Assembly: GCF_000020605.1 (NCBI RefSeq)
Contig: NC_012781.1
Coordinates: forward strand, 139,001 to 203,000
From: Agathobacter rectalis ATCC 33656
GTDB taxonomy: Bacteria > Bacillota > Clostridia > Lachnospirales > Lachnospiraceae
Length of the DNA stretch: 64,000 nucleotides
Direction of reading: 5' to 3'
Shown: piece after piece, positions 14,713 to 31,150 of the stretch
How the letters are laid out: every line of letters begins with the position of its first letter
How positions within the stretch are numbered: the stretch's first letter is position 1
Notes under the pieces: model-generated
The model's input: the letters and a program-made list of their open reading frames with translations, nothing else
What the model was told of the DNA's origin: nothing
Database searches by the model: none
Program-made: the position numbers and the translations under genes

Positions 14713-14728
14713 TCCCGGGAGAAAAGAA

Positions 14729-15988
14729 ATGTTTAGAGTAATTGAAACTTTTAGTGGAATTGGAAGTCAGGCAAAAGCATTAACAAGAATTGGAAAACCT
14801 TTTGAAATTGTAAATACTGCAGATTGGGATATTAACGCAATACTGGCATATTGTCTGATACATAAAGGCAAAATTGATATTAATAAATATGCAGAAATTT
14901 CAGATGAAGATGTTACAAATTTTTTAAAAGGTTTATCGCTGAGTTCCGATGGAAAGAAACCTATGAGTGATGAGACGTTTAGGCGAATGCCAATGCATTT
15001 GAAACGAAGATTGTATGCAGCAATAAAAGAAACAAGAAATATGGTAAGTATTACGGATGTTATGGGAAGTGATATACCCGACAATATTGATTTGTTCACA
15101 TATTCATTTCCTTGTCAGGATTTATCATTATGTGGATGCTGGCATGGGAATAAAAGTGGAATAGCAAGGGATGCACATAATCGTTCTGGTATGCTTTGGG
15201 AAGTTGAACGTATATTGCTTGAAATGAATGAAATGGGAAAAGAATTACCTCGTTTTCTGCTTATGGAAAACGTAACCAATATTCTGTCAAAACCGCATGC
15301 TGCAGATTTTGGTGATTGGAAGGCAACTTTAGAAAATCTGGGATATTATAATAAAATATATAGGCTTAATGCTCAAAATTTTGGTATTCCTCAAAAAAGA
15401 GAAAGAGCATATATGATCAGTATATTGTGCAAAAATAATGCCGAAACGATAGCCCAAGTAGAAAAGTACTTTGAAGAACATAATTTGGAAAAGGATGAAG
15501 CAACGCGTTTAAAGCAAAGGAATTTAAGGTTAAAAGACATTCTTTGTTTAGATTACGATGATGTTCCCAGATATAAGGAAGAAGCTGATGCAAGTAAACC
15601 TAATGATACGCCTTCCAGAAGAAAAATATGGGAAGATAATGAATTGCTGTATGATGGAAAAGAGATTAGGGACATCGTTGTTAATACAGTAACGACAAAG
15701 CAGGACCGTAATCCTAATTCCGGCTTGATTATTTATAAGAATCGGGCAAGAGGAAAGACAAAATGGAGATATCTGACTCCAAGAGAGTGCTTTAAGTTGA
15801 TGGGATTTGATGAATCGGATTTTGACAGGATAATCAGTGATAATCCTATGGTAACAAAGAATAGATATTTGTATTCAACAGAGAAGCTTATTAAACTAGC
15901 AGGTAATAGTATCGTGGTTGATGTTTTGGAAGCTATTTTCAGACAGATAATGGATATTAATGAGAAGATTTTAGGTGAAAGAAAATGA
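14729..15988 (+). CDS. DNA (cytosine-5-)-methyltransferase 2
   Basis: A 419-residue C5-methyltransferase unlike the other two in this island. Motif I reads RVIETFSGIGSQAKAL (3-18), motif IV TYSFPCQDLS with catalytic C129, motif VI MEN (179-181), motif VIII PQKRERAYMI (221-230), and the closing motifs are LTPRECFKLMGF and KLAGNSIVVDVL. ATG 14729 is used because GGGAG lies upstream and the family starts at this point; an in-frame ATG at 14678 lies within the previous gene. It overlaps the HNH nuclease gene by ATGA, which suggests the two are a matched methyltransferase-endonuclease pair. Target sequence unknown. Confidence 0.94.
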   Translation: MFRVIETFSGIGSQAKALTRIGKPFEIVNTADWDINAILAYCLIHKGKIDINKYAEISDEDVTNFLKGLSLSSDGKKPMSDETFRRMPMHLKRRLYAAIKETRNMVSITDVMGSDIPDNIDLFTYSFPCQDLSLCGCWHGNKSGIARDAHNRSGMLWEVERILLEMNEMGKELPRFLLMENVTNILSKPHAADFGDWKATLENLGYYNKIYRLNAQNFGIPQKRERAYMISILCKNNAETIAQVEKYFEEHNLEKDEATRLKQRNLRLKDILCLDYDDVPRYKEEADASKPNDTPSRRKIWEDNELLYDGKEIRDIVVNTVTTKQDRNPNSGLIIYKNRARGKTKWRYLTPRECFKLMGFDESDFDRIISDNPMVTKNRYLYSTEKLIKLAGNSIVVDVLEAIFRQIMDINEKILGERK

Positions 15989-16740
15989 CAATAAATCAGA
16001 AAAAGTCTTTAGTGGCATTTTACATTTCAAAGTTTAATGATGACGCATTTCGTGAATTGGGATATGGTGGACCGGTGTCAAAAGCGATGGATGACTTATC
16101 AGTACGAATTACCGGTCCGGGTGTTGAACCTAATGCTTATTTAAGGCGAAGGCGGGATGAATTTGATGTGTTTTTTGATAACGGAAGAGTTGGACAACGC
16201 AACAGAAAACCAACAGAGACGGTAAAAGAACTGTATGGGCAATGGAATGTAATGGAGTTTGAAGAAATAACAGAAATTGTAAAATCAGTTTTGGATGGAA
16301 CAATGGAAGAATCTCAGGTGATTAATTTGGAAGTAGATGAAGAAACTGTTTCAGAATATGATGTTGAAACGTATCTAAATTTTGATGACAATACGGCAGC
16401 ATTAAATAAAACGGTAAAATCTGTGATGGAACGTACTTATTCCAAAAAGAAGGTAGAAATGTTAAAGCGTTTATATGCGTATAGATGTCAGATATGTGGT
16501 CAAAATGTCGGTGAAGAACATGGCGTTAATATTGCAGAAGCTCATCATATTAAGTATTTTTCAAAGAGTGTTGATAATTCATCAGATAATCTTCTTATAT
16601 TGTGTCCAAATCATCATAGTCTGATTCATGTATTAAATCCAAAATTTGATTATGATGAATTACAGTATATTTATCCAGACGGAAAGACTGATAAAATTAT
16701 ATTGGATTTGCATCTGACTCATGGTAAGGAGGAAGAATAA
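15985..16740 (+). CDS. HNH restriction endonuclease
   Basis: A 251-residue protein ending in a clear HNH/McrA-type nuclease: C168 and C171 (CQICG), the catalytic pair AEAHHIKY (H187, H188), and CPNHHSLIH (C207, H210, H211). The CxxC...C..H set should hold a structural zinc. The N-terminal 130 residues are acidic and probably contact the target. Coupling by ATGA to methyltransferase 2 argues for a type II restriction pair in which the HNH enzyme cuts the unmethylated site. Other HNH proteins cut modified DNA (type IV), so a modification-dependent role is the main alternative. Confidence 0.85.
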   Translation: MTINQKKSLVAFYISKFNDDAFRELGYGGPVSKAMDDLSVRITGPGVEPNAYLRRRRDEFDVFFDNGRVGQRNRKPTETVKELYGQWNVMEFEEITEIVKSVLDGTMEESQVINLEVDEETVSEYDVETYLNFDDNTAALNKTVKSVMERTYSKKKVEMLKRLYAYRCQICGQNVGEEHGVNIAEAHHIKYFSKSVDNSSDNLLILCPNHHSLIHVLNPKFDYDELQYIYPDGKTDKIILDLHLTHGKEEE

Positions 16741-16742
16741 AA

Positions 16743-16952
16743 ATGACAATATCTGAGCAAATAAAAGTATTGTGTGTCAGACAGAAAATAAGTCTGGCAG
16801 AGTTGGCAAGGAGATTGGGAACAACACCTCAAAATTTTAATGCAAAACTGAAAAGAGAAAGTTTTACTGTGGCAGAGCTTGAGGATATAGCAGAAGCCGC
16901 GGGAGTTACTTTTGAAAGAAGTTTTGTGTTGGATGATGGAGACACAGTATAA
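16743..16952 (+). CDS. XRE-type HTH regulator (possible restriction controller)
   Basis: A 69-residue Cro/C1-type helix-turn-helix protein. The HTH reads KISLAELARRLGTTPQNFNAKL with the recognition helix at about residues 26-34. It is the size of classic controller (C) proteins that time restriction endonuclease expression after entry into a new host. It sits two bases after the HNH gene stop and before vsr. No clear C-box was found in front of it, so control of this operon by the protein is inferred only from position and size. Confidence 0.8.
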   Translation: MTISEQIKVLCVRQKISLAELARRLGTTPQNFNAKLKRESFTVAELEDIAEAAGVTFERSFVLDDGDTV

Positions 16953-16965
16953 GAAGGTGATATAT

Positions 16966-17400
16966 ATGGCGGATGTTTTGACTAAAGAACAACGGCATAA
17001 AAACATGAAAAATATTCATGGAAAAGATACTAAAATTGAAATTATCCTTAGAAAAGCTTTATGGGCAAAAGGTTATCGGTACCGGAAGAATTATAAAAAG
17101 TTACCGGGAAATCCGGATATTGTGTTGACAAAATATAAGATAGCAATATTTTGCGATGGGGAATTTTTTCATGGAAAAGACTGGGAAGTGCTAAAGCCAA
17201 GGCTACAGAAAAGTAATAATAGTGCATTTTGGGTGAACAAAATTTCTAAAAATAGAGAAAGGGATGATATGGTTAATAAAAAATTGTTATTTATGGGATG
17301 GACGGTTATAAGATTTTGGGGTAAAGATATAAAAAAGCATACAGATGAGTGTGTAAAGGCTATAGAAGAGATAATATTTGATATAAAGATGGAGGATTGA
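16966..17400 (+). CDS. vsr: Very short patch repair (Vsr) endonuclease, variant
   Basis: A 144-residue Vsr-family nickase that repairs T:G mismatches created when 5-methylcytosine deaminates. It starts with the family pattern EQRHKNMKNIHGKDTKIEI, has the PDIV active-site strand near residue 50, and CDGEFFHGKDW around 64-74 where enterobacterial Vsr has a CFWHGH-type zinc-binding motif. The zinc ligands of the classical enzyme are therefore partly absent. ATG 16966 is the natural start, after GAAGGTGA; the frame extends upstream into the HTH gene. Its presence beside three C5-methyltransferases is logical, and Vsr is classically associated with Dcm/EcoRII-type CCWGG methylation, which matches the third module. 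Confidence 0.88.
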   Translation: MADVLTKEQRHKNMKNIHGKDTKIEIILRKALWAKGYRYRKNYKKLPGNPDIVLTKYKIAIFCDGEFFHGKDWEVLKPRLQKSNNSAFWVNKISKNRERDDMVNKKLLFMGWTVIRFWGKDIKKHTDECVKAIEEIIFDIKMED

Positions 17401-17404
17401 TTCT

Positions 17405-17678
17405 ATGAAGAGTAGATTTGAAATAATGGGGGGAGGATATTAGGAAACAGACGCGTGAACTTGTAATGAGTTTTATGCAACAGAGTGAAGCGTGTCAACC
17501 AAGTGCAGAAGGTATTAAGCAAGCGGAGCTGTTTAGAGTATGTGGATTAGACTGGGGAGAACAACCTACAGCTACGTCGACGCAACAGAATTTTTGGCTT
17601 GTTGGATTATTGAGAACGTTGGAAAGCGAAGGGATTGTAGAACGTGATGTCACAACAAAAAAATGGCGATTAAAATAA
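17405..17678 (+). pseudogene. Small winged-helix-like gene with a frameshift at a G6 tract
   Basis: ATG 17405, with GGAGG about 9 bases upstream, opens a frame that ends after 12 codons. The run of six G at 17428-17433 is followed, in the next frame, by an open frame to 17678 that continues a plausible protein (EDIRKQTRELVMSFMQQ ... VERDVTTKKWRLK). Removing one G would join them into about 90 residues with a winged-helix-like end (LVGLLRTLESEGIVERD). Internal start at ATG 17466 has no ribosome-binding site and would give 70 residues. It could be a true pseudogene, a phase-variable gene, or a base-calling error. It lies just upstream of the EcoRII-type pair and may encode its regulator or accessory factor. 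Confidence 0.6.
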
Positions 17679-17730
17679 CGAACATATATTCGAAAATCAT
17701 ATTGCTTTTTTGTAAATGATGCTGTATAAT
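17679..17730 (+). promoter_or_regulatory. Promoter and palindrome in front of methyltransferase 3
   Basis: TTGCTT (17702-17707) and TATAAT (17725-17730) are 17 bases apart. Just upstream, CGAACATATATTCG (17679-17692) is a palindrome with CGAA/TTCG arms. The methyltransferase downstream has an N-terminal ribbon-helix-helix domain, a class that binds short palindromes, so autorepression at this site is a reasonable guess. Confidence 0.6.
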
Positions 17731-17774
17731 GTAAGGGAAACATGTGGTACATATTTTTTCCCGGAGGCAATTAT

Positions 17775-18920
17775 ATGAAACAGATGCATTTAAGAGTAGA
17801 TGATGCATTGTATGAAGAACTTAATACATATTCTGTTGAAACAGAACAATCAATGCAAGCTTGTGTAAGAGAAGCAGTAGTATATTATATTACAGATAAG
17901 AAAAAGAAACAGATACCTATTTTAAAATCTCAATTTACTTTTATTGATCTCTTTGCGGGAATTGGAGGAATGAGACTTGCATATGAGAATGTTGGTGGAA
18001 GATGCGTATATTCCAACGAATGGAATAAGTATAGTCAGCAAACATATTATGCTAATTTTGGGGAACAACCGGAAGGCGATATTACAAAGGTGGACGCTAA
18101 AACAATTCCTGATCATGATATATTGGTTGCAGGGTTCCCGTGTCAACCGTTTTCTATTGCGGGCGTCTCGAAGAAGATTAGTTTGGGAAGAAAGACTGGG
18201 TTTGAAGATAAAACACAAGGAACATTATTCTTTGATGTTTGCAGAATTTTAAAAGAAAAGCGCCCCAAAGCGTTTATGCTTGAAAATGTAAAAAATTTGA
18301 AGAGTCATGATAAAGGAAGGACCTTTAAAACGATTCTAGAATCATTAGATGAGTTGAAATATAAGGTTTTCTTTGCAGTGTTGGACGGACAGAATTTTGT
18401 CCCGCAACATAGAGAGAGAATTATAATTGTTGGCTTTGACATGGAGAGATATGGTGATGATATTGAGTTTGATTTTGACATTACGCCAGTCAATCCGAAA
18501 CCAGTGATGCGAGACATTTTAGAAAAAAAGGTAGATGATAAATATACATTGTCTGATAATTTATGGACATATCTTCAGAATTATGCTGCTAAACATAGGG
18601 CAGCTGGTAATGGATTTGGTTATGGAATTGCGCCTTTGGATGGAGTATCTAGAACTATTAGTGCACGATATCATAAGGATGGATCAGAAATATTAATAGC
18701 TCAAAAGGGAAAAAATCCGAGGAGGTTGACTCCGCGTGAGTGCGCGAGATTACAGGGATTTCCAGAAAGCTTTGTAATACCGGTGTCTGATACGCAAGCG
18801 TATAGACAGTTTGGAAATTCGGTAGTTGTTCCATTAATAGAGAATGTTGCAAAACTGATTGTAGAAAAAATTGATTTATTAGAATCGGATGTTCAGAATG
18901 AAAAAAGGAAGGCGATTTAA
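17775..18920 (+). CDS. EcoRII-type DNA (cytosine-5-)-methyltransferase 3 with ribbon-helix-helix head
   Basis: A 381-residue C5-methyltransferase. Motif [21 protein letters not shown] (56-75), motif [13 protein letters not shown] with catalytic C113, motif VI LEN (159-161), motif VIII VPQHRER (199-205), motif [15 protein letters not shown] and motif [13 protein letters not shown]. The first 40 residues, [13 protein letters not shown] followed by [14 protein letters not shown], look like a ribbon-helix-helix DNA-binding fold fused to the enzyme, which would let it repress its own promoter. GGAGG stands 7 bases before ATG 17775. Its stop shares a base with the start of the EcoRII-like nuclease. 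It probably methylates the same CC-GG-type site that the nuclease cuts. Confidence 0.94.
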
Positions 18921-20095
18921 TGTCAACAGAAATACTAAACAAAGCAATAGAATCAACTGTTGCAAGTGAATTGGCTTTTTGCAAATTTTTATCTGCGAAT
19001 GATACTGGAGCGACAGGTGGACATCAAGGCGGAGTTCTTGTGTCAGTATCTGCAAGTCGCATGTTATTTGTAGAAATATTGCCAGATAATGATATTTTAA
19101 AGAGAGATGTTAAGATAACATGGCAAGGAGATTTGGTTACAGAAAGTACATTTACTTATTACAGTAGCAAAAAGGAACTGAGAATTACGAAATTTGGAAG
19201 AGACTTTGATATAATTAATCCGGATAGAACAGGTTCTTTATTTGTCTTGACAAAACAAAGTTGGGATGATTATTCCGTATTTATAATGGATACGGAGGAT
19301 GAAATAGAAGAATTTTTGAGTACATTTGGGATAAGTGCAACAGAGACTAATTGTTTGTTTGGAGCCGGAGGCGTACAAAGAAGTGTTATAGAACAGCAGG
19401 CTATCGAAACATTTATTTCCTCGTTGGAAGTAGAATTTCCAGAGACAGAGGTGATGTCATCGGCTGCAAGAAATATTTCTGATGCAGTGTATAATCATGT
19501 TGAGTATTTGATTACAAATCCTGATAAAAAGATTATAGAATGGACTAATATGGAATATGCATTATTTAGAGCGCTGGAAGAATATAGATACGGAGATATT
19601 GTAAGATGTGGATTTCCGTCAGTTGAAGAATTTGTTAGTGTTGCGAATTCTGTATTAAATAGACGTAAGAGCAGAGCAGGAAAGAGTTTAGAACATCATT
19701 TGGAGGCAATATTTGTAGCTAATGAAATTATTTATGATGCGCAACCTGTTACAGAAGGAAAAAAGAAACCAGATTTTCTATTTCCATCAGCAGTGGCATA
19801 TCGTGATTTGACATATCCTGTAAGTAAATTGGCGACCTTGGCAGCTAAAACAACTTGTAAGGATAGATGGCGTCAAATTCTGAATGAGGCAAATCGATTA
19901 AAAGATGAAAATAAGTTTTTATGCACATTGCAACAGGGAGTATCACCTATGCAAATGGATGAGATGGAGGCAGAAAAAGTTATTCTTGTGGTACCTAAAC
20001 CATACATATCATGTTATCCAAGAGATAGACAAGATAGAATTTGGACAATATCTCGTTTTGTAAGGTATATTAAGAGTATTCAAAATACTGATTAA
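18920..20095 (+). CDS. EcoRII-family type IIE restriction endonuclease
   Basis: A 391-residue endonuclease, close in length to EcoRII (about 400). The N-terminal effector domain is suggested by KFLSANDTGATGGHQGG (23-39), and the C-terminal catalytic domain (EcoRII-C, PF09019) by NRRKSRAGKSLEHHLEAIF, KPDFLFPS and AAKTTCKDRWRQI. The likely PD-(D/E)XK residues are E258, D285 and K310. Enzymes of this family cut at CCWGG or CCNGG and need a second site as allosteric effector. It is translationally coupled (TAATG) to the methyltransferase. All key motifs are intact, so the gene looks functional. Confidence 0.92.
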   Translation: MSTEILNKAIESTVASELAFCKFLSANDTGATGGHQGGVLVSVSASRMLFVEILPDNDILKRDVKITWQGDLVTESTFTYYSSKKELRITKFGRDFDIINPDRTGSLFVLTKQSWDDYSVFIMDTEDEIEEFLSTFGISATETNCLFGAGGVQRSVIEQQAIETFISSLEVEFPETEVMSSAARNISDAVYNHVEYLITNPDKKIIEWTNMEYALFRALEEYRYGDIVRCGFPSVEEFVSVANSVLNRRKSRAGKSLEHHLEAIFVANEIIYDAQPVTEGKKKPDFLFPSAVAYRDLTYPVSKLATLAAKTTCKDRWRQILNEANRLKDENKFLCTLQQGVSPMQMDEMEAEKVILVVPKPYISCYPRDRQDRIWTISRFVRYIKSIQNTD

Positions 20096-20132
20096 GTCTC
20101 TACAGTGTTAATAATATGCGGATTTTTAATAA

Positions 20133-20152
20133 CACCAAATTATGGTGAATTT
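20133..20152 (+). terminator. Short hairpin after the EcoRII-type gene
   Basis: CACCA and TGGTG pair around AATTA, followed by AATTTT. The stem is only five base pairs, so termination would be weak. It lies 38 bases after the nuclease stop codon. Confidence 0.4.
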
Positions 20153-20392
20153 TACTAAAAAAACACCAACCCTGTCCATAGACAAACACAAAACCCCATT
20201 GTATAATGAACACACGATTTGCAAATTTCATACTCTGCAGAAGTGTACAATCACTGACCGAGGCAGTATGATATTTTGTGGAAATCAGAAAAATGTCACA
20301 AACTGACACTTTTTCGCAAAAATAGACCATGATAGTCCCTTGTGGACGAGACAGGATGGGTTTATACTATATCCAGGCTTGAGACAAGCCAA

Positions 20393-20408
20393 TGAGAAAA
20401 TGAAAATT
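20393..20408 (+). repeat. Left copy of a 16-bp direct repeat (candidate att site)
   Basis: TGAGAAAATGAAAATT at 20393-20408 is repeated exactly at 26351-26366. Both copies are preceded within a few bases by GCCA. The pair brackets the structured RNA region, the serine recombinase, the Kiwa genes, the PD-(D/E)XK gene and the tRNA-like sequence. The size and location are those expected of core sites left by a large serine recombinase. Confidence 0.6.
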
Positions 20409-20439
20409 GACAACTGAATAGCAGTTACAGATTTGAGTA

Positions 20440-20800
20440 AAATTACGGATCATATACCCGCAGGATGAAAGTCACAGTTATCATATTAGTAGGCTGATGG
20501 ATTGAGAGATGAAGGCCAAGAGGCTGGACAGAAGTCCGGGCAATGCGGGAGCAGGTATGTTGCGTAAGGATAATAACCCATGAGGGGCGAGAGGTTCGTC
20601 CCGATCCCCGCAATGCATGTAGGGGAGATAGTGCTTCTCCAGAATGGAGGAGGGCGTCGTGAACACAGCTAGTGGCTCGTCTGTAATTCCCGGAGGTGAG
20701 TACACCTTTACGTATACGGGGCGATGAGGGGTTAGGAAGACCGGCGTATACCTTCATAGGACGTTAAAAGAAGTCCAGAACAGAATTAGTGATAACCAAA
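20440..20800 (+). ncRNA. Unassigned highly structured RNA-like region
   Basis: About 360 bases, clearly richer in G and C than the surrounding island, contain several strong helices on the plus strand: GGGGCGA/TCGTCCC (20584-20602), CTTCTCC/GGAGGAG (20634-20652), GCGGG...CCCGC bracketing the first hairpin, and GTATACGG...CCGGCGTATAC near 20711-20750. No long plus-strand frame crosses it, and the minus-strand frames through it have no ribosome-binding site. An intrinsic terminator follows on the plus strand. It may be a stand-alone ncRNA, the leader of the recombinase mRNA, or the ORF-less 5' part of a decayed group II intron. I could not find an intron domain V or a reverse transcriptase, and I do not recognise the family. 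Confidence 0.5.
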
Positions 20801-20802
20801 AT

Positions 20803-20853
20803 CGTTATCCATAGTTTATGCATTTTCGAATGAGCTATGGATAGCGTTTTTTT
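20803..20853 (+). terminator. Strong terminator or attenuator just before the recombinase
   Basis: CGTTATCCATAG pairs with CTATGGATAGCG, the loop closes further with CATT-TTCG-AATG, and seven T follow. It ends 3 bases before the ribosome-binding site of the recombinase gene. Transcription reaching the recombinase would have to pass it, so it may both end the structured RNA and hold recombinase expression low. Confidence 0.8.
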
Positions 20854-20868
20854 ATGGAGGTAGCGCAG

Positions 20869-22584
20869 ATGGAAGAAAAAATAGATATTACAGATAAAAC
20901 AATTGAAATAGATACAGATAAAGGGAGTGCCATAAAAGTAACCATGTCATATGGTGAACAATCAACGCTAGAGGAGTTGTTGATAGCATATCTGGAGCAG
21001 ATAGCAATATATTTGAGATTATCAAAGGAAGATGAATTTGTAAAAGATGAGAGCAACAGTATTACCAATCAGCGTGCTTTTATCCGTGGATTTATTAATA
21101 AAAATAAGGAACTTCGCAAAATGAGTGTGATGGAGTTTGTGGATGATGGCTATTCAGGTAAAAATATGGACCGCCCGGATATGCAGAGAATGCTGGACCT
21201 TGTGAAAAGAAAGCAGATTTCATGCGTTATTGTAAAGGATTTCTCCAGATTTTCCAGAGATCATATCGAGCAGGGAAAATATATTGAACAGATATTTCCT
21301 TTTATGGGTGTGCGATTTATTGCTATAAACGATAATTATGACAGCGCAGATTATGTGGGTGGTATTGGTGAGATTGATGTTGCATTTAAGGGAATCATGT
21401 ATGATTTCTTCAGTGAGGAGCAGTCTTCCAAAGTATCATTGACACTTGATACAAAGCGTGGCAATGGTAAGTACATAGCTACCTATGCTCCTTATGGCTA
21501 TGTGAAAAGTCCGGAGGACAAGCATAAGCTGGTTGTGGATGAGTTTGCCAGTCAGATTGTAAAGCGCATTTTCAAAGAGTTTCTGTCTGGAAAATCTATG
21601 TACAAAATTTCAGAAGGACTGAACCGGGATGGAATAGATACGCCGGGCGTGTATATTGCCATGCAGACAGAAAGTGAAAAGCAACTTGCCAGATATCGTG
21701 AGAAAAAGCCTCTCTGGAATAATGTTGCAATAGGAAGAATCCTCGAAAATGAGCAATATACCGGCACGATGATTTACAGCCGCTTCAAGATTGAGAATGT
21801 TGGCGATAAACATGCAAAAGCACTTCCAAAGGATGAATGGAAGCGTGTGGAAAATTGTCACGAGGCAATTATCAGCAAGGAGGATTTTGAAAAAGCCGCT
21901 GCCATGCGAAAAGGAAATACATGTGCCAGTGCCAAAAGAAAGCATGAAACACATTGCCTGACCGGCAAGATGATCTGTGGAAACTGTGGGCATCGCCTGT
22001 CCCATACTTATGCCGGTCGACCGAAGTATTATTGTGCAAATCATTATCTGGATAAGACTGATGGAAAATGCAATATCAGCGTGTTGGATGCCTATATGGA
22101 AAGTGTTGTGAAGAAAGCACTTCAGATGATGATTGATGTGTTGGTGGATTCCAGAAAGGTTGTGGATATGCAACGGGAGAAACAGGCAGAACGATTAAAG
22201 CAGGCAGAAAAGCATCTTTCAGATATGGAGCATAGCCGTGAACTGATCGAAAAGAACCTGCGTGAAGCTTATGAAAGTTACAAGCTTGGCATGACGGATA
22301 AGGAAACATATCTGGAACAGCGTAAGATATATGAGCAGATGCTTGAGCGCCTGCGGGAGAATATCGAAAAGCAGAGGGCAGCAGTCACCAAGATGGCAGA
22401 TGTTGATGTGCCGGAAGTGGCAGGTCTGGAGATGTTGGAAGGGCAGCTGAAGCTGACGGGACTTAACAGGGAAATGGTGGATGCTTTTGTGGAGGAGATT
22501 GTTGTGTATGCAAAGGACAGGGTGGAGATAAAGTGGAAGTTTAAGGATGAGTTTTGGGAGACAGAAAAGGCTCGAAAGCCTTGA
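20869..22584 (+). CDS. Large serine recombinase
   Basis: A 571-residue large serine recombinase. The resolvase catalytic domain begins unusually late: the catalytic serine is S52 in IAIYLRLSKED, after an acidic extension of about 45 residues. DFSRFSRDHIEQGKYIEQ and the E-helix follow. The recombinase DNA-binding domain covers about 200-330 (YAPYGYVKSPEDKHKL, ILENEQYTG), a zinc ribbon lies near 365-395 (CGNCGHRL ... YYCANH), and a coiled coil near 430-520. GGAGG is 8 bases before ATG 20869. It probably integrates and excises the element bracketed by the 16-bp repeats. All catalytic motifs appear intact. Confidence 0.93.
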   Translation: MEEKIDITDKTIEIDTDKGSAIKVTMSYGEQSTLEELLIAYLEQIAIYLRLSKEDEFVKDESNSITNQRAFIRGFINKNKELRKMSVMEFVDDGYSGKNMDRPDMQRMLDLVKRKQISCVIVKDFSRFSRDHIEQGKYIEQIFPFMGVRFIAINDNYDSADYVGGIGEIDVAFKGIMYDFFSEEQSSKVSLTLDTKRGNGKYIATYAPYGYVKSPEDKHKLVVDEFASQIVKRIFKEFLSGKSMYKISEGLNRDGIDTPGVYIAMQTESEKQLARYREKKPLWNNVAIGRILENEQYTGTMIYSRFKIENVGDKHAKALPKDEWKRVENCHEAIISKEDFEKAAAMRKGNTCASAKRKHETHCLTGKMICGNCGHRLSHTYAGRPKYYCANHYLDKTDGKCNISVLDAYMESVVKKALQMMIDVLVDSRKVVDMQREKQAERLKQAEKHLSDMEHSRELIEKNLREAYESYKLGMTDKETYLEQRKIYEQMLERLRENIEKQRAAVTKMADVDVPEVAGLEMLEGQLKLTGLNREMVDAFVEEIVVYAKDRVEIKWKFKDEFWETEKARKP

Positions 22585-22690
22585 TAATACTGAATATTCG
22601 GTGGAGATTAGTGAGAGGAGGTGGTATAATTGGAATGGGAGCGAAAAGTCAAAACAAATATATTGTCAAGAAGGAAAAGAGGTGAAGTGA

Positions 22691-23269
22691 TTGAAGAAGC
22701 AATTGATTATTTTGTCGTTAAGTCCGTTATTTTTATTAACAATACTGCAATATTTTCCATTTGAGAAGTTTGGTTGTGTGGTTGGCAATTTGTTCAATAT
22801 TCAGATGGTTTATAAACATTTGCCGTTATATATAGGAATGTGGATTTGTTTGATTTGGGTTATTGTGTCTTTGATCATATTTATTAAATTTGTATGTTTT
22901 CAACGATATGACGTAGTTGGAGGTTATGAAGTTAAGGATATCAAAGAAGAAAAAGATGCCGGATTGAATTTCTTTCTTACACTTATTTTGCCATTGTTGG
23001 TTAACGATATTTCGACGTGGAATGGTTTATTATTGATGATTTTTCTAGTTGTTATAATAATATGTTTGTTGTCGAAAACCAATTTATACTATCAAAACCC
23101 AGTACTAATAATATTGAAATATAAGGTGTATAAATTTAAATTTGTTGACAATGAGCATTTGCCAGATGGAGAGTATATTGCATTGATAAGAGGCAATATG
23201 GATAGTCGCAACACAATAGAGTACAAGAAGATAGAGGACAATGTTTTAGTTATCAGAAAGGAAGGATAA
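22691..23269 (+). CDS. kwaA: KwaA, membrane subunit of a Kiwa anti-phage system
   Basis: A 192-residue protein starting at TTG 22691 after GAGGTGA. It has four hydrophobic segments (about residues 4-23, 46-72, 92-107 and 112-130) and a C-terminal cytoplasmic tail of about 55 residues. Alone this would be unassignable, but size, four-span topology and the following DUF4868 gene match the two-gene Kiwa arrangement, in which KwaA is the membrane sensor and KwaB the DNA-binding effector. It begins 106 bases after the recombinase stop, which is typical for cargo next to an integrase. Confidence 0.8.
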   Translation: MKKQLIILSLSPLFLLTILQYFPFEKFGCVVGNLFNIQMVYKHLPLYIGMWICLIWVIVSLIIFIKFVCFQRYDVVGGYEVKDIKEEKDAGLNFFLTLILPLLVNDISTWNGLLLMIFLVVIIICLLSKTNLYYQNPVLIILKYKVYKFKFVDNEHLPDGEYIALIRGNMDSRNTIEYKKIEDNVLVIRKEG

Positions 23270-23273
23270 ATTC

Positions 23274-24227
23274 ATGAATAAACAAGAGATAACATCAAAA
23301 ATTAAAGAAATTACAGAAACAGGTGCAGTGTGCGGTGTTGATGTATACGTCTGCTTAAAAGGTGAGGAGCAGGGATTTTATATTGAGAAGATGATATCGA
23401 TGAATTCCTTGAAAGATAGAATTCGGTCTATTGCTTTGGAGATTATTAATACACAGTATTTGCAAGATGAGGTGGTGTACTGTGATATTTTAGATGTTAT
23501 AGATAATAAAAAGGCAGTTTATGTTTTGGAGCAAAGTGATGAGTACAAACCATTTGCCTTGCTAAATGATGATAGTATGGATGAGGTTTTCAATTTTGAC
23601 GAAAAGGACATAGGAAATGTCCTTGGCTTTTTATTCAAAATAAATCTAAATAGCAAGAAATTGTTTATATATCAGCAAGCATATGTAGGATCCAGATTGC
23701 AGGCAAAAAATAATCTAAGAATAATACAAAAAGATAATGTGTTTGAAATTGTCGATAAAGAAATGCTGAAAATCGATAAAAGAGGAGAGTTACTTATCTT
23801 AGATAATACTATATTGGTAAGAAATGTTAAGGTTCTTCAAGATTTTTTTGGCTTTCAAGTGTTTGTCCGTAACCAAGCACAGAGTGTTATTTCCAAACTG
23901 GAAGAATTAGATATTATTGGAAATATAGCTACATTGAAGGAATATCAAACTGGAGAAAAATTAACTATATCCAAAAAACTTATGAAAGTGAAGAATTCAC
24001 CAGTGTTGGCAATGGATAAAGATGAACTCATAAATAAAATACCATTAGTTCCTCGATATAAAAATATTATACATATTGAAAATGGAAAGATTCGTACAAA
24101 TACGAAAAAAGATGTCGATAATCTTATGAAATTGCTTAATGATGATTATGTTAAATCGGAATTGACTGATATGGAGTATGATAGTACGTCCAAAACATTA
24201 TTAAATAGTGAAAGTCAAGATGAGTAA
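23274..24227 (+). CDS. kwaB: KwaB (DUF4868), effector of the Kiwa system
   Basis: A 317-residue soluble protein with the DUF4868 (PF16162) pattern: a beta-rich N-terminal half, then LGFLFKINLNSKKLFIYQQAY, FEIVDKEMLKIDKRGELLIL, and the helical segment VKVLQDFFGFQVFVRNQAQSVI at about 195-216. In published work KwaB binds DNA and cooperates with KwaA at the membrane to stop phage replication. It starts 4 bases after kwaA and is cotranscribed with it. No nuclease motif is evident in KwaB itself. Together the two genes make a complete Kiwa system, here carried as cargo of a serine-recombinase element. Confidence 0.85.
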   Translation: MNKQEITSKIKEITETGAVCGVDVYVCLKGEEQGFYIEKMISMNSLKDRIRSIALEIINTQYLQDEVVYCDILDVIDNKKAVYVLEQSDEYKPFALLNDDSMDEVFNFDEKDIGNVLGFLFKINLNSKKLFIYQQAYVGSRLQAKNNLRIIQKDNVFEIVDKEMLKIDKRGELLILDNTILVRNVKVLQDFFGFQVFVRNQAQSVISKLEELDIIGNIATLKEYQTGEKLTISKKLMKVKNSPVLAMDKDELINKIPLVPRYKNIIHIENGKIRTNTKKDVDNLMKLLNDDYVKSELTDMEYDSTSKTLLNSESQDE

Positions 24228-24425
24228 ATGGATTGTAATGTTTTAAATTTCCCCTATGGTATGTGCATAGCTATAAAGCATCAAAAAGGGGTAAGGCCCG
24301 TACTCTATAACCACGTGTGGATAATTATAGGTTGAGAGACATTTCATAATACCATATTATTGATAGCAAATTAAAGTTGTTTATGATGAAAAAAGTAATG
24401 AAAATTTGTGGGAGGGATGATTAGC

Positions 24426-26144
24426 TTGGAAAGACAAGAAGAGTATGAATTAAGACAAGTTTTATTTTCAGAAATTAATAAAGATATAGATAATAATTTT
24501 CAGGGGGTATATGAAAAAATTTCACATGATTTTGGAAAAGAAATACTTTATCCATTGTCTGTGGTTGAGAAAAAATTTAATGATATGTCGATGAAATCTC
24601 TTAATAATGGATTGTTTGCTAATAATGAATTAATGATATCAGTCAATCCATTGAGAGAAGCTGTCTATTGGTACATTAAAAATATAATGGAAAAGAACGG
24701 AAAATTAAAGTATCAGAGTGCAGTGTTTGGCGAACAGTTACCAGGTGAATATGAATTTATAGAATGGGTGTTAAAGATATATGATGAATATTCAAAAGCG
24801 AATTTGATAAAGAGTATAAGAGATGGTTCTTCAAAGGTTGAAATCAGAGAAGAAAAAAATGGTAACTTAGGTTTTTATTTTCCAGTAATAAAGGACGAAT
24901 ATAGCAAAGAGATGATTTATTATTATGGATTGGATGATGCCCTTGCTTCAGAAGCAGAAAGGCATGTTTTTACTGAGTGTGAGAAATATTTGCTTGATAA
25001 AATAAATGTTTTTGTTTTGTCCCAAAATCCCCAATTGGTAATAACATATTTTAATATTTTGCGAAGAATGACATCGGTGATAGATTTAAAGTATTTTGAG
25101 TTATGTAAAAAACGTATACTGATAGATCTTAATAAAATATCAAGTTCAACATTAAAAAGTAGATATAGAGATAATGGTGAAAGTGTAATAAATAGTAAGG
25201 ATGAACTTGCTTCATTTTTAACATTATTTTACTATTTGAGCAGGGTAGATTCAGTAAAAAGAATGCTTACATTTACGACAGGTTATGGAGATGGGAAATA
25301 TTATTGTGTGTATGAACTGCCCAAACTCTTGGCATTAGGAAAGCAAGTAGGCCTTTCTAATGATGTAATGAAGGTTTATGTAAAATATTTTTCTGTTGAC
25401 CCGAGTGTTCAAGGTGGATCTTTTTTGGAATTTCCGTTCATAGTATGTCGAGAAAAGGTTATTTGGATTCCAAGTTCTATAGTGCTGAACGATTTTCAAT
25501 TTTCCATAGTAAATGGCCATTACTATAAAGCTGTTGATTTTTATGAGAAGGATGATACTGTGTCTCAATCTATTGTAGATTATGTTGTAAACCATAGTAA
25601 AAAATATAAGAATATAATGGTAAGATCAAATTATCTATATAATGAGCCTGGTCTTAAATTTAATGGTAGAGATTTGAAGAGCGATATTGATGTTGCAATT
25701 TATGACATAAAGACAAAAAAATTGTTAGTTCTGGAATGTAAATGGAAAGAAAATGTATATTTGAATCATGATGATTATTTGCAGATAGAAGATGCTATTA
25801 GAAAAGTGTATTCAAGACAATTAGAAAAACATCAATTCTATTTAGGGTTAGGAAAAGAGAAAATATCAAAAATTTTTGATAATGAAATAGATTTTGATAA
25901 AATTACTAATTTGGATATTCTGTATCTGTTTGTTGATAAGCGGATTCAGTTTCACGATAATAAAAAAAATAGACATGCAGTACCTATTTTTCTGTTGGCA
26001 CATCTTTTTGAAAAATATAGTACAGAAGATGAGTTAGACTTAAATGCATTATTTGAAGATATTCGAAGAATGGAAAGCAAGGTTAGTCGAGAAAGAGTAA
26101 AATTATTAAATCCTGTAAAGATTGGAAAATATACAGTTGAATAA
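24426..26144 (+). CDS. Unassigned protein with a PD-(D/E)XK nuclease domain
   Basis: A protein of 572 residues from TTG 24426, which has GGAGG 10 bases before it; ATG 24417 is possible but the site touches it. I do not recognise the N-terminal 400 residues, which look helical. The C-terminal part contains a good PD-(D/E)XK core: SDIDVAIYD then LLVLECKW, about residues 418-440, giving D, E and K in the proper order and spacing. The end (about 500-560) is helical and basic. The gene follows kwaB by about 200 bases and shares its AT-rich composition. It may be a separate single-gene defence system or a third Kiwa-linked factor. Confidence 0.7.
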   Translation: MERQEEYELRQVLFSEINKDIDNNFQGVYEKISHDFGKEILYPLSVVEKKFNDMSMKSLNNGLFANNELMISVNPLREAVYWYIKNIMEKNGKLKYQSAVFGEQLPGEYEFIEWVLKIYDEYSKANLIKSIRDGSSKVEIREEKNGNLGFYFPVIKDEYSKEMIYYYGLDDALASEAERHVFTECEKYLLDKINVFVLSQNPQLVITYFNILRRMTSVIDLKYFELCKKRILIDLNKISSSTLKSRYRDNGESVINSKDELASFLTLFYYLSRVDSVKRMLTFTTGYGDGKYYCVYELPKLLALGKQVGLSNDVMKVYVKYFSVDPSVQGGSFLEFPFIVCREKVIWIPSSIVLNDFQFSIVNGHYYKAVDFYEKDDTVSQSIVDYVVNHSKKYKNIMVRSNYLYNEPGLKFNGRDLKSDIDVAIYDIKTKKLLVLECKWKENVYLNHDDYLQIEDAIRKVYSRQLEKHQFYLGLGKEKISKIFDNEIDFDKITNLDILYLFVDKRIQFHDNKKNRHAVPIFLLAHLFEKYSTEDELDLNALFEDIRRMESKVSRERVKLLNPVKIGKYTVE

Positions 26145-26240
26145 AAAGAATGTTTTACGGTAGATGTTTTGTAAATCTATTTAGCAATGGTACAATATAG
26201 ATGATTGCAAAGCTGTTTCCATAACCCGCCACCGCCTTAA

Positions 26241-26313
26241 GCGAGGATAGCGCAGCGGAGAGGCGCAGTACCAGTTCTGGTAAAGGACGCAGGTTCGACT
26301 CCTGCACCTCGCC
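26241..26313 (+). ncRNA. tRNA-like sequence with a tetraloop in place of the anticodon loop
   Basis: GCGAGGA and ACCTCGC form an acceptor stem (six of seven pairs). The D arm is GCGC-AGCGGAGAG-GCGC. The T arm is perfect: GCAGG-TTCGACT-CCTGC. Between them, TACCA-GTTC-TGGTA forms a five-base-pair helix with a 4-base loop rather than a 7-base anticodon loop, and no reading of 17 bases gives a normal anticodon arm. It therefore cannot decode normally. It lies at the right end of the recombinase element, just inside the right 16-bp repeat. It may be a pseudo-tRNA, a tRNA mimic, or part of the attachment region. Confidence 0.65.
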
Positions 26314-26350
26314 TTTAAAATTGAATATTGCTATTGGTAAAGATGCCATT

Positions 26351-26366
26351 TGAGAAAATGAAAATT
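26351..26366 (+). repeat. Right copy of the 16-bp direct repeat (candidate att site)
   Basis: Exact second copy of TGAGAAAATGAAAATT. It is 38 bases after the tRNA-like sequence and about 25 bases before the broken helicase gene. Precise recombination with the left copy would remove 5958 bp and leave the restriction operon and its right flank in place. Confidence 0.6.
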
Positions 26367-26391
26367 ACTTAAAAAAGTCCCCATCACACCC

Positions 26392-28752
26392 TTGACACGA
26401 GGGGGTACCGGAAAAACATATGCATCTGCGTTTGCCATGCGTGAGCTGGGATTCAAGCGAGTGCTGTTTCTCGTACACAGAGGTCAGCTTGCAAGACAGA
26501 CAAAGAAATCATATGAAAAGATTTTTGATAAATCAGTTTCTATGGGACTTGTCGGTGCAGGGTACAGTGACTATGACAGGGATTATGTTTTTGCAACGGT
26601 ACAGACCTTAAATCGTGATGAGCATTTGAGAAAATATGCACCGGATGACTTTGATTGCATAATTTTGGACGAGGCACACCACAGCTCGGCTAACACATAC
26701 CAGAAGGTGATGAACTATTTTACACCAAAGCTGTGGCTTGGAATGACAGCGACCCCTGATAAGCGCGATGATGATATTGACGGAAAAAACATTTACCAGA
26801 TTTTTAATTATCAGATTGCGTATGAGATTCGTTTGCAGCAGGCTATGGAGGAAAACATGCTGTGCCCGTTCCATTACTTTGGAATAACAGATGTTTCACT
26901 GCTTGGTGACAAGGAGATAAAGAGTAAAAAGCTTACAGAATCATCGTTCAACCAGCTTGTTGGTGATGAGAGGGTAAAGCATATCATTGAGCAGGCCAAT
27001 TATTTTGGACATAGCGGCGACAGGGTGAAGGGACTGATTTTTTGCAGCAGGATAGATGAATCAGTCGAATTATCGAATAAGTTTAATCAGACAATAAATC
27101 CTGAGACAGGCAGATTTTTCCGTACAATCGCATTAAATGGAGATGCCACAGAGGAGGAGAGACAGAGAGCCTTTGAGCGGCTTGCGATGGATGAAAATAC
27201 GTTAGATACCACTAACAAAACTAATGCAGATCAGATATTTGACACGGAGAGAACAGAGAAAACGGATAAAGTAGATAAAGCCGATGAAAACATGCAGCCT
27301 CTGGATTACATATTTTCCGTCGAGATTTTAAATGAGGGTGTTGATATCGTGGAGGTAAACCAGGTCATCATGCTCAGACCGACAGAATCGCCAATTGTAT
27401 TTATACAGCAGCTGGGACGTGGACTTAGAAAGGCAAATGGCAAGGAATATGTTGTTATACTTGATTTCATTGGCAACTATAACAACAATTTTATGATACC
27501 AGTCGCATTGTCGGGCGACCGCTCTTACAATGCAGATACAATCAGAAAGTATGTTATCAGCGGAAATAATACGATTCCCGGCGCTTCGACAGTGCATTTT
27601 GATGAGATTGCAAAGGACAGGATTTTTGCGTCGATAGGCAAAATAAAGGGTATGAAATCCATTATAAGAGAGAGCTATGTTTCTTTGAAAAACAGGCTTG
27701 GAAGAGTGCCGTACCTATTGGATTTTTATGAAAATGGAGAGGTAGACCCGCTTGTAATAATAAAAGAGTACAAGACCTATCAGGCATTTCTTGAAGCGGT
27801 TGAGAAGGAGCTTTATACCGGCAGATTAAATGAGCAGGAAAAAACAACTCTTGAGTATTTGTCTAAAACTATCCTAAGTGGTACGAGACCGTTTGAATTG
27901 GAGATTTTAAGGCAGCTTATGAAGAAACCGTCTCTTTCAATGAAAGAGATAAGAGAGGTTTTCACACAAAGATACGATTACGAGGTAAATGTGCAGTCTC
28001 TTGACAATGCGGCTGATGTGTTGCAGGGAAAGTTTGTCAGCAAGGATGATGAGTACAAGAGATTTTGCAGAATAGATATTCTAAAGGAGGATAACAATAA
28101 TATTTTCCGCAGGATGAATAACTTTACCACAAGGCTTCAAAATGAAGAGTTCAAAAAGCAGATAGATGACATAATAGAGGTAGGACTCAAAAGATACCAT
28201 GATAAATATCAGACCGCACTCAAAAATGAGAGTCCGTTTGTATTGTATGAGAAATACTCCAGGCGTGATGTTAGTCTGTTGATGAATTGTGGTAGGGATC
28301 TTTCCTCTACCATGTACGGAATGAAGCGCATAGATGATGATGTATTTATCTTTGTCACATATCATAAAGAGGAAAGCACAGACGAGCAGAAAAACTATGT
28401 AGATGGAAAGCCGGATTACGCGGATGCGTTTGAAGATAATATGATTTTCAGATGGGATTCGCAGATTGGCAGGGGCGTGGACAGCTCATATGTTTCAGAT
28501 GTAGTGAACACAAAAAGAAAGCATCTGCTCGTGAAAAAGAGTGATGCGGAGTCAAATTTTTACTATATGGGAGAGTTTGATATAGTTGATGTGCGCGCTG
28601 CCAGAAAGCGTGATAACAATGGCAAAGAGCGCGATATCACCAAGTTTGAGATGAAGATGCACCACCCTGTAAGAGAGGATCTGCTTCGATATCTGCAGAG
28701 CAATTTACAACAAAGATTACAAAATAATACACAGGAGCTTAAGGCAATATGA
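26392..28752 (+). pseudogene. DEAD/DEAH-DUF3427 helicase, truncated at Walker A
   Basis: About 785 codons continuing the helicase whose first 43 codons lie at 5661. The sequence becomes recognisable exactly at GGTGKTYASAFAMRE (Walker A) and then has DEAHHSS (motif II), GMTATPDKRDD (motif III), FSVEILNEGVDIVEVNQVI (IV/V) and QQLGRGLRKANGKEY (VI), followed by the DUF3427 C-terminal region. There is no ribosome-binding site or good start at the junction, and the PLD-like N-terminal domain is missing. Codon use is the backbone type. It might still be translated from an internal ATG near 26434, giving a helicase without Walker A, so I treat it as broken. It overlaps the Nudix gene by ATGA. Confidence 0.8.
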
Positions 28753-29171
28753 AAACAGTACGCGTAGTGGCTGCCGTCATAAGAGCAGTCAATAAAGAAA
28801 ATAAACCGATTATATTTGCAACCCAAAGAGGCTACGGAGAGTTCAAGGGCGGCTGGGAGTTTCCTGGAGGCAAGATTGAGTCTGGCGAGACACCGCAGCA
28901 GGCGCTAAAGTGGGAGATAATGGAGGAACTGGACACAGAAATTGCTGTCGGAGAATTAATAGATACGATAGAATACGATTATCCTAATTTCCATCTCTCT
29001 ATGGATTGCTTCTGGTGTGAGGTAATTCACGGTGAGCTTATCCTAAAGGAGGCTGAGGACGCAAAGTGGCTTACAAAGGAGCATCTGGCGGACGTGGAGT
29101 GGCTGCCGGCGGATGTGACACTGATTGAGAAGATTGGAGAGGAGTTGCATGAAACCAAGGACAGCAAATAG
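28749..29171 (+). CDS. Nudix (deoxy)nucleoside triphosphate pyrophosphohydrolase
   Basis: A 140-residue MutT-like enzyme. The Nudix box is PGGKIESGETPQQALKWEIMEEL (about 39-61); the usual REUxEE is WEIMEE, so the arginine is replaced by tryptophan. The remaining metal-binding glutamates are present. MutT-like pyrophosphohydrolases commonly follow DUF3427 helicases, and here the start overlaps the helicase stop. The last 25 codons are the unit that is repeated twice more downstream (29837 and 31103), which makes this the founding copy of the mosaic region. With its helicase broken and upstream promoter lost, expression is uncertain. Confidence 0.85.
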   Translation: MKTVRVVAAVIRAVNKENKPIIFATQRGYGEFKGGWEFPGGKIESGETPQQALKWEIMEELDTEIAVGELIDTIEYDYPNFHLSMDCFWCEVIHGELILKEAEDAKWLTKEHLADVEWLPADVTLIEKIGEELHETKDSK

Positions 29172-29836: not shown

Positions 29837-29999
29837 GCAGATGTAAAGTAGCTGCCGGCGGATGTGACATTGATTGAGAAGATTGGAGAGGCACTATATG
29901 AAACCAAGGACAGCAAAGAGTATGGAGCTTGAGGAGACAAATGCAAGATGGAATGAATGCTTAAACAGTTATGAGAAAGTGAGGCGAGGCGTGTGTTGA
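29837..29999 (+). pseudogene. Second copy of the Nudix 3' end, fused to an internally deleted small gene
   Basis: From about 29837 the sequence matches the end of the Nudix gene (CTGCCGGCGGATGTGACA ... ATTGGAGAGG). It then gives ATG 29898 and a 33-codon frame that equals the first 11 and the last part of the gene at 31126, with 65 codons missing. The intact gene carries GAGCT at 31153 and again at 31348, 195 bases apart, and the deletion joint lies exactly at GAGCT, so a microhomology-mediated in-frame deletion explains it. Its stop overlaps the start of the DUF1016 gene. Confidence 0.7.
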
Positions 30000-30997
30000 T
30001 GAATACATCGGAGTATCTATCCGTTATCGAAAATATAAAAAGTGAAATAAAGGCTGCACAATATCATGCGACGATTCATGTGAATGCTGATATGTTGCTT
30101 TTGTATCATGATATTGGTTGTGTAATCAATGAGCATAAAGCGTGGGGGAACAAGTTTGTAGACAATCTTGCCACGGATATACGAAGTGCTTTTCCAAAGA
30201 GCAAGGGATATTCCGTCAGAAATCTGAAGTATATGGCAAAATTCGCTGAGACTTATCCGGATCGTGAATTTGTGCAGACGGTGTCTGCACAAATTCCATG
30301 GTCCCATAATATTGCAATTTTGGAAAAGGTAAAAGACCAAGAACAACGTGTATGGTATATTCATAAAACAGCAGAAAATGGATGGTCGCATAATGTTCTT
30401 GTGCATCAGATAGAAAGTGGTTTATATCAACGGCAGGTTTTGGCGGACAAGGTCACAAATTTTGAAAATCGACTGCCATCACCTCAAAGTGAGCTTGCAA
30501 CGCAGACGATGAAAGACCCATATGTGTTTGATTTTATTTCGTTTAGAGAGGACATGTTGGAACGGGATATTGAACAGGCATTGGTGAGGGATGTCACCAA
30601 GCTGCTTCTGGAACTTGGAACAGGTTTTGCATTTTTGGGGAATCAGTATCATCTGAACGTGGGCGGCGATGATTTTTATATTGACCTGTTATTCTATAAC
30701 TTGAATCTGCGCTGCTATGTAGTCATAGAACTAAAAACCGGGGAATTCAAGCCGGAATATGCCGGGCAGCTGAATTTCTATCTGTCGGCAGTGGATGGCA
30801 TATTAAAGAAAGAGCAGGATAACCCGTCCATTGGTCTGCTCCTTTGTAAGAGCAAGAACAACGTGGTAGCGGAATATTCGCTCAAAGATATTTCCAAACC
30901 AATTGGTGTGAGCGAATATAAAGTGACAAGCATTCTGCCGGATGAACTGGAAGAACAACTGCCATCCGTTGAAGATATCCAGAAACGGATTAAATAA
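29999..30997 (+). CDS. DUF1016 (YhcG-like) PDDEXK nuclease-domain protein
   Basis: A 332-residue protein of the DUF1016 family. The N-terminal half is the helical DUF1016_N domain (AFPKSKGYSVRNLKYMAKFA, IPWSHNIAILEKV, at about 60-105), and the C-terminal half is a PDDEXK nuclease with FYIDLLFYNLNLRCYVVIELKTGEFKPEYAGQLNFYL, where D, E and K of the ELK motif form the active site near residue 225-245. Family members occur in mobile and defence regions. The start is ATG 29999, immediately after GTG TTG, with GAGGCGAGG upstream. It sits between two copies of the Nudix tail, as an inserted cargo gene. Confidence 0.88.
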   Translation: MNTSEYLSVIENIKSEIKAAQYHATIHVNADMLLLYHDIGCVINEHKAWGNKFVDNLATDIRSAFPKSKGYSVRNLKYMAKFAETYPDREFVQTVSAQIPWSHNIAILEKVKDQEQRVWYIHKTAENGWSHNVLVHQIESGLYQRQVLADKVTNFENRLPSPQSELATQTMKDPYVFDFISFREDMLERDIEQALVRDVTKLLLELGTGFAFLGNQYHLNVGGDDFYIDLLFYNLNLRCYVVIELKTGEFKPEYAGQLNFYLSAVDGILKKEQDNPSIGLLLCKSKNNVVAEYSLKDISKPIGVSEYKVTSILPDELEEQLPSVEDIQKRIK

Positions 30998-31065
30998 AAT
31001 TTAGTATTGTATAACTAAAATAGCAGCCTGTTGAAAAAACTTAGAATTAAATTTATGAATTCATA

Positions 31066-31150
31066 TACTTGACATGAAAGGGTACTGGAAAACATATGCA
31101 TCTGGCAGACGTGGAGAGGCACTATATGAAACCAAAAACAGCAAAGAGTA
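31066..31150 (+). repeat. Third junction copy: helicase Walker A joined to the Nudix tail
   Basis: CTTGACATGAAAGGGTACTGG at about 31068-31088 parallels CTTGACACGAGGGGGTACCGG at the island-helicase junction (26391-26411). The helicase codons continue to GCATCTG and there switch to the Nudix tail (GCAGACGTGGAG), GCATCTG being present in both parent genes. A second joint at GGAG removes about 40 bases of the tail. This is a scar of a complete helicase-Nudix copy reduced by two short-homology deletions. Confidence 0.6.

Follow-up and report, generated by a model that had tools for sequence, protein, structure and literature searches.

A Kiwa-bearing defence island, probably of the serine-integrase-triplet kind, in a helicase gene of Agathobacter rectalis

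We examined a stretch of 64,000 nucleotides (nt) from Agathobacter rectalis ATCC 33656, a member of the Lachnospiraceae (contig NC_012781.1, positions 139,001 to 203,000). This stretch is referred to as the window, and its own coordinates are used throughout. Within it, a defence island of ∼20.6 kb splits a gene encoding a DUF3427 helicase, and a Kiwa system sits near the right end of the island. The original prediction for this DNA, made from its letters, had placed a mobile unit of ∼6 kb here, delimited by an exact 16-bp repeat that brackets a serine recombinase, a structured RNA, kwaA, kwaB, a PD-(D/E)XK gene, and a tRNA-like sequence. All of these components are present, the PD-(D/E)XK gene by a weak DUF234 match and a motif seen by eye, and they take their place among the following features of the split gene and the island.

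5673-5789, + strand: helicase remnant, residues 33 to 71 of the N-terminal part (tblastn with the intact homologue L030, 56% over 39 amino acids)
5793-26403, no strand assigned: probable defence island interrupting the helicase gene (flanked left and right by helicase parts; approximate on the left, where the end is unrecognised)
5913-8732, + strand: protein gene (Pfam PF10593; PADLOC MzaC, E 4.9e-57)
12478-18920, + strand: C5-methylases at 12478, 14678, and 17742, a DUF4420 PD-(D/E)XK protein at 13813, an HNH protein at 15985, and Vsr at 16912 (Pfam)
18920-20095, + strand: EcoRII-type restriction enzyme (Pfam; relative in L122)
20487-20756, + strand: Clostridiales-3 RNA, RF02942 (cmscan, 246 bits)
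20854-22584, + strand: integrase 3, its N terminus fused to a small upstream open reading frame (ORF) by a deletion with its junction within 20993-21000 (Pfam; comparison; tree)
22691-23269, + strand: kwaA (PADLOC best E 5.7e-33; solved KwaA chain, E 1.2e-5)
23274-24227, + strand: kwaB (PADLOC best E 3.1e-119; solved KwaB chain, E 2.4e-8)
24408-26144, + strand: orf5, 578 amino acids, probable PD-(D/E)XK nuclease (DUF234 match, E 1.3e-4; strand-D..ECK motif by eye)
26241-26313, + strand: tRNA-like sequence without a normal anticodon loop (ARAGORN and structured-RNA scan)
26386-26405, + strand: island right end, ACACCCTTGACACGAGGG and then the GG core (26404-26405; comparison with relatives)
26404-28752, + strand: C-terminal part of the helicase, from its P-loop (Pfam; homologue comparison)

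The window recombinase comprises Resolvase, Recombinase, and Zn-ribbon domains (Pfam), and a scan of genome contigs with this protein retrieved five loci. In L061 (on the same contig as genome G163, C16), L062, L063 (genome G210), and L065 (truncated by its contig end), its counterpart comes last in a row of three serine recombinases, and the Clostridiales-3 RNA lies upstream of the row; L064 displays an internal loss of another kind than that of the window. When loci were tested for three adjacent integrases in one orientation, L061, L062, L063, L065, and L122 had three and the window had one. The single recombinase of the original prediction is thus the last of three, two of which have been deleted here. 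Window segments 20134-21006 and 20993-24285, which are 92% and 96% identical to L061, respectively, sit 4.3 kb apart in that locus with recombinases 1 and 2 between them; the simplest reading is therefore that the window lost integrases 1 and 2 by deletion. The junction falls in TGGAGCAG at 20993-21000, where the L061 segments read TGGGGCAG in one and TGGAGCAG in the other. We have filed the window copy as a putative deletion derivative of serine-integrase-triplet elements. Breakage also occurs in L063, where integrases 1 and 2 are each broken into two reading frames.

Integrase 2 of L061 matched three of 250 Lachnospiraceae (family) genomes at E ≤ 1e-120, all three with the triplet, and 35 loci in viral contigs, with positions 1, 2, and 3 in order by best match in 15. 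A tree of 43 rows, built from 14 loci chosen among these matches (three integrases each) plus the window protein, grouped the integrases by position. Support was 100/99 for each of positions 1 and 3 and weak (76/76) for position 2. The window protein belongs to the position-3 group and pairs with integrase 3 of L061 (94% identity). Two phage records gave weak partial matches across the recombinase gene, and plasmids gave no match. The fused ORF retains all three Pfam domains and the YLRLS motif, and the right end of the island is intact, as would be expected if the lone integrase 3 still mobilised the window island. We regard this as very unlikely, given that all 14 loci in the tree have three positions and that no left end is recognised in the window.

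The right junctions of the window, L061, L062, L063, and L083 differ from ACACCCTTGACACGAGCGGGTAC by zero or one substitution. The sequence to the right of the junction is the helicase from its P-loop in the window, L062, L063, L083, and L122, and modA in L061. With one mismatch allowed, 14 of 21 loci (11/18 when L061 to L063, which supplied the motif, are set aside) have TTGACACGAG-N-GG on the downstream side of integrase 3. Upstream of that point it occurred 0 times in 186,585 nt of the same strand, and 0 times in 300,155 nt of the opposite strand. The motif was missed in L116, L123, L124, L125, L126, L132, and L140, with just 503 and 58 nt left in L123 and L132. Integrase 3 and the right end are separated by 68 to 75 nt in seven streptococcal-like loci (a label taken from the SpR18 RNA in L131 and from likeness among the loci), by 110 and 165 nt in L118 and L127, and by 1.9 to 4.9 kb with genes between in L061, L062, L063, L117, and L122. 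The exact right-end pattern was not found in viral contigs; the L122 element, where it was expected, reads GGGCAC instead of GGGTAC. The target of L136 looks like hsdM by eye.

Occupied sites read GCNACNGG(T/C)AC where the left half is known, with GGCAC in L122, and several loci preserve the unoccupied state. Besides the window's own, the helicase search covered 11 congener loci, seven of which read through the site (..LLISATGTGKTYASAF..) and four of which gave no reading. The N- and C-terminal parts of the helicase were contiguous in 8/8 longer congener loci fetched, and the same NUDIX gene follows in seven of these, the eighth contig ending there. ORFs listed for four of these eight loci gave a single frame of 993 to 1000 amino acids in three and, in L157, a frame broken downstream of the site. 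In G210, the helicase halves lie 37 kb apart on one contig and the left junction reads TCTGCTACG-GG-GGAACGTGATATATTTATGACAG; joined at a single GG, the halves form an open frame that is 90% identical over 390 amino acids to the intact helicase of L162. The modA site is empty in the window's own genome, where the modA ORF starts ATGAGCTTAAGAATAGCGACAGGTACTGACGG, and is occupied in G163 by an element with the same right junction as the others. As for short repeats, the GG core is found in G210 and at the right junction of G163, and the window keeps the right junction only. A left-end-like sequence (six substitutions) was also seen at 13461 of L024 (G110:C73), in the same helicase P-loop; that contig has a Clostridiales-3 RNA and no triplet was seen on it.

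At the level of sequence, comparison thus shows that the relatives share the RNA, a hairpin after it (described below), three integrases whose order is constant, a pocket for cargo, and TTGACACGAG-N-GG as the right end; that insertion splits the target at a GG dinucleotide, in the helicase P-loop or modA; and that the window copy has lost two integrases.

The boundaries originally proposed lie elsewhere, at the two copies of the 16-bp repeat.

20393-20408, + strand: 16-bp repeat, first copy (exact match)
26351-26366, + strand: 16-bp repeat, second copy (exact match)

A compact 6-kb element delimited by these copies and moved by one serine recombinase draws its support from the repeat itself. 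TGAGAAAATGAAAATT is exact in both places (the other four matches, with up to three mismatches allowed, differ by two or three), no other 16-mer is repeated within 20000-27000, and at least one repeated 16-mer arose in just 5 of 200 dinucleotide shuffles of the stretch (mean, 0.035). By this measure, a 16-mer repeat in that interval is only mildly unusual. The pair is unconserved in relatives. L061 and L065 have the left copy unchanged, L064 has it with one mismatch, and L062, L063, and L122 show five or six mismatches at best. For the right copy, the closest match lying no more than 400 nt from the right end has three mismatches in L061 and five or six in L062, L063, L083, and L122. Because these five relatives lack the right copy close to their right ends, the repeats do not mark the island boundary, and their candidacy as attachment sites was ruled out; in other genomes the same recombinase has boundaries unrelated to them. 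Alignable homology with relatives also passes the first copy, extending left to ∼20129, and the conserved right end (TTGACACGAG-N-G|GG at 26392-26405) lies beyond the second copy, with the helicase split from ∼5790. The repeats are thus incidental. The empty site was anticipated as left flank, one repeat copy, and right flank; that exact form was absent from all 60 genus genomes searched, although the underlying expectation of a target gene uninterrupted elsewhere held, in intact helicases and an intact modA locus. We therefore consider the 6-kb element extremely improbable.

The proposal that Kiwa travels as cargo of a serine-recombinase element was borne out. The adjacent kwaA and kwaB occupy a pocket bounded by integrase 3 and the right end; relatives may have other genes there. 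Nine of the 12 non-Kiwa pocket proteins (G163, G209, G210, and L122) were scanned; Pfam named five (DUF4365, C5-methylase, GmrSD_N, HEPN_MAE_28990, and DUF4062), and PADLOC matched four of the nine at E ≤ 0.001, one of them weakly (1.3e-4). Sequence shared between L061 and the window ends at 24285, just past kwaB; thus, orf5 and the tRNA-like sequence are no fixed partners of Kiwa here. A kwaB gene was found in 3 of 250 family genomes, including the window's own, with the relatives in G302 and G107. According to a review (PMC12904381), KwaA tetramers reside in the membrane and KwaB dimers bind injected DNA; the window system presumably acts as in E. coli, with membrane KwaA and DNA-binding KwaB.

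To the left of the RNA, the restriction genes appear to be cargo of the same kind of island rather than a separate restriction island beside a small unit, as first suggested. Vsr, methylase, and EcoRII genes of L122 are 86%, 91%, and 87% identical to those of the window, and they adjoin the same RNA and an intact triplet. No relaxase or conjugation genes were found among the scanned proteins of the window island, a scan that left small ORFs outside; G210 has a relaxase and MobC, and G209 has a relaxase fragment.

Beyond the helicase, the right flank bears traces of other insertions.

29847-31157, + strand: probable fossils of earlier events, with a YhcG/DUF1016 nuclease, NUDIX 3′ ends that recur, and, at 31068, a second junction resembling a right end (sequence comparison)

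The NUDIX 3′ end is present in three copies (in the gene at 28749-29171, at 29847-29924, and at 31112-31152), and the second right-end-like junction is accompanied by a helicase start at 31068-31104, with the YhcG/DUF1016 nuclease in between. This segment likely preserves the remains of an element that entered the same site earlier.

Taken together, we consider it very probable that the window stretch is a defence island of the serine-integrase-triplet kind, inserted in the P-loop codons of the DUF3427 helicase gene and present as a decayed copy. Several observations weigh against this reading. The left end of the window island is unrecognised, and ∼210 helicase codons are missing to its left. 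G163 lacks 4.95 kb of chromosome left of its element, and the left limit in G209 was looked for and not found. A clean left end is tied to the triplet only in G210, where two integrases are broken. For these reasons, a single 20-kb entry, as opposed to a stepwise one, is unproven, and the fossils at 29847-31157 favour several events. Stepwise entry is the substance of a composite origin, in which a restriction element and a Kiwa-bearing triplet element entered the helicase successively and were then merged by deletions. The fossil right end and the repeated NUDIX ends adjoining the island, along with the loss of left ends in the window and G163, are in keeping with this history. Conversely, L122 and L116 have related left cargo right beside an intact triplet, and in G210 and G209 defence genes flank the triplet left and right. 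We judge a composite origin to be unlikely on balance, while according it appreciable weight.

If the window island is of the triplet kind, the three integrases would insert a circular form into the chromosome at GCNACNGG(T/C)AC, with excision as the reverse. The circle junction expected for an element with an intact triplet (L122 or G163 type) is CGAGCG-GG-GGAACGTG. The pocket that follows integrase 3, and that holds Kiwa in the window, may be where defence genes are swapped. The window copy, predicted to be mobile at the outset, instead looks decayed. Having lost its first two integrases and any left end that can be recognised, it is probably immobile, and Kiwa and the restriction genes would then remain as resident defence in a fixed island.

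The Clostridiales-3 RNA upstream of the integrases scored 246 bits against an Rfam gathering cutoff of 103.4. Three further features surround it.

20179-20207, + strand: promoter-like site, TAGACA-17-TATAAT (consensus scan, 11/12)
20443-20454, + strand: 5′ arm of a helix absent from the Rfam model, partner at 20556-20567 (alignment fold, covariation)
20803-20853, + strand: terminator-like hairpin and T run (fold z −5.7; kept in 7/7 triplet-linked copies)

In an alignment of 18 copies (7 triplet-linked and 11 others), conserved sequence begins 5′ of the Rfam model. The helix has standard pairs in 96.7% of cells, with both sides changed in 6 of 10 pairs. Its covariation is 0.393, compared with a shuffled mean of 0.104 (0/500 as high) and at most 0.058 when slid; the helix was picked from the fold of the same alignment that scored covariation, which favours it. 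The partner arm is drawn unpaired in the Rfam alignment. The alignment thus indicates that the RNA is longer than the Rfam model, with a covarying helix partly outside it. In the 250 nt that follow the RNA (179 nt in L021), a hairpin leading into a T run was found for 7/7 triplet-linked copies and 0/11 others, a contrast that may reflect one ancestral state because the seven copies are related. The hairpin at 20803 has a loop longer than the rule of the promoter and terminator scan permits and was not among its hits; the scan gave six promoter consensus sites, versus 2.3 in shuffles.

Among 150 family genomes, 11 have the RNA, 8 of them above the cutoff. By eye, an actin-like ATPase follows it in 7/12 loci of one set and 3/3 of another, and lysS precedes it in 5/12 and 2/3, respectively; in L017, the ATPase and a DUF6462/Xis-like protein near the RNA were confirmed with Pfam. 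The RNA thus recurs in lysS-adjacent loci resembling integrative and conjugative elements (ICEs), where the terminator-like hairpin was not found. The idea that the serine recombinase generally accompanies the RNA was rejected, as no homologue (E ≤ 1e-5) was detected within the 1.5-kb flanks of other family copies, and none was noticed in the ORFs listed around them. L061 to L063 carry the RNA by alignment. Scanned at the gathering score, 17 loci in which 500 nt or more precede an integrase-1 gene, several of them close kin, gave Clostridiales-3 RNA in two (L065 and L122), pemK RNA in six, and neither in nine. A distant Clostridiales-3 RNA ahead of the L116 triplet was looked for and not found. 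The pemK RNA (RF02913) lies ∼0.3 to 0.6 kb ahead of integrase 1 in L128, L131, L133, L136, L137, and L141.

Given the hairpin contrast between triplet-linked and other copies, we tentatively raise the idea, itself rather doubtful, that a promoter-RNA-terminator cassette might gate the integrase operon by regulated read-through or processing, so that islands would be mobilised only under a sensed condition. If so, the RNA in lysS-adjacent, actin-like-ATPase ICE-like loci, together with pemK RNA at the corresponding place ahead of streptococcal-like triplets, would point to structured RNA leaders as a recurrent gate of integrating elements. The open-licence PMC literature yielded no paper on Clostridiales-3 RNA, from which we do not claim its absence from print, and, for pemK RNA with recombinase, the papers listed were recombinase papers only.

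The protein encoded by orf5, a probable PD-(D/E)XK nuclease, has no solved relative, none in viral contigs, and a match in 1 of 250 family genomes (the window's own); its fold prediction (predicted local distance difference test score, pLDDT, 33) was uninformative and unused. ARAGORN reported the tRNA-like sequence as tRNA-??? with a 2-nt anticodon. A second copy, at 12312-12384 of L062, was left uncalled; the two lie near the right ends of islands with different cargo. Neither has a normal anticodon, because both read UACCA-N4-UGGUA at the place of the anticodon arm. Their folds are not clearly better than shuffles (z −1.8 and −1.3), and the lowest-energy fold of the window copy is unlike a tRNA. 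DNA matches in 14 other family genomes are probably ordinary tRNAs, since 12 of the 14 loci are in or beside ARAGORN tRNA genes. Among 62 genus genomes, the specific pattern of the element was found only in that of the window, and no match to it turned up in viral contigs. Elsewhere in the window, two T-box leaders were observed, at 45610-45849 (+ strand) and 42843-43151 (− strand).

With these results, defence genes of a common gut family, among them Kiwa, Druantia, and restriction genes, gain a vehicle whose right end and target are defined and for which natural empty sites exist; defence-gene turnover at one hotspot can therefore be followed. An orphan Rfam RNA gains a setting and a corrected 5′ boundary, and its function thereby becomes testable. 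Searches of the open-licence PMC literature for three serine recombinases with defence, and for large serine recombinases with Lachnospiraceae defence systems, found none, although absence from print is not claimed; a search for serine-integrase triplets with defence gave only a synthetic-biology review, judged by title.

In staphylococci, staphylococcal cassette chromosome (SCC) elements use serine recombinases to move restriction-rich gene islands into one chromosomal gene. SCC elements employ other recombinases and another target than the window island, and the likeness is one of description only. The window Kiwa resembles the known system in having both genes, adjacent and matching PADLOC models and solved E. 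coli-type chains, but its sequences are distant, it sits in an integrase-proximal pocket, and its activity here is presumed from homology. The RNA matches RF02942 over its full length and above the cutoff, but its conserved sequence and helix extend 5′, and triplet-linked copies are then followed by the terminator-like hairpin.

The closest parallel is with streptococcal ICEs, which, in the excerpted account of Ambroset et al. 2016 (PMC4701971), have three adjacent serine integrases that cluster by position, insert in mutT, traG, and hsdM, and leave repeats of 2 to 8 bp; one further hsdM insertion is given in an excerpt of PMC7563491. As far as these excerpts go, the island group shares with them three adjacent, position-clustered integrases, insertion inside protein genes, probably with very short repeats, and genes that may separate the triplet from its target. 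The group differs in comprising restriction and defence islands in Lachnospiraceae, in its DUF3427 helicase and modA targets, and in the Clostridiales-3 RNA ahead of the integrases, with the window copy down to one integrase. Serine-integrase triplets are thus known from streptococcal ICEs; here, the module carries restriction and defence islands in Lachnospiraceae.
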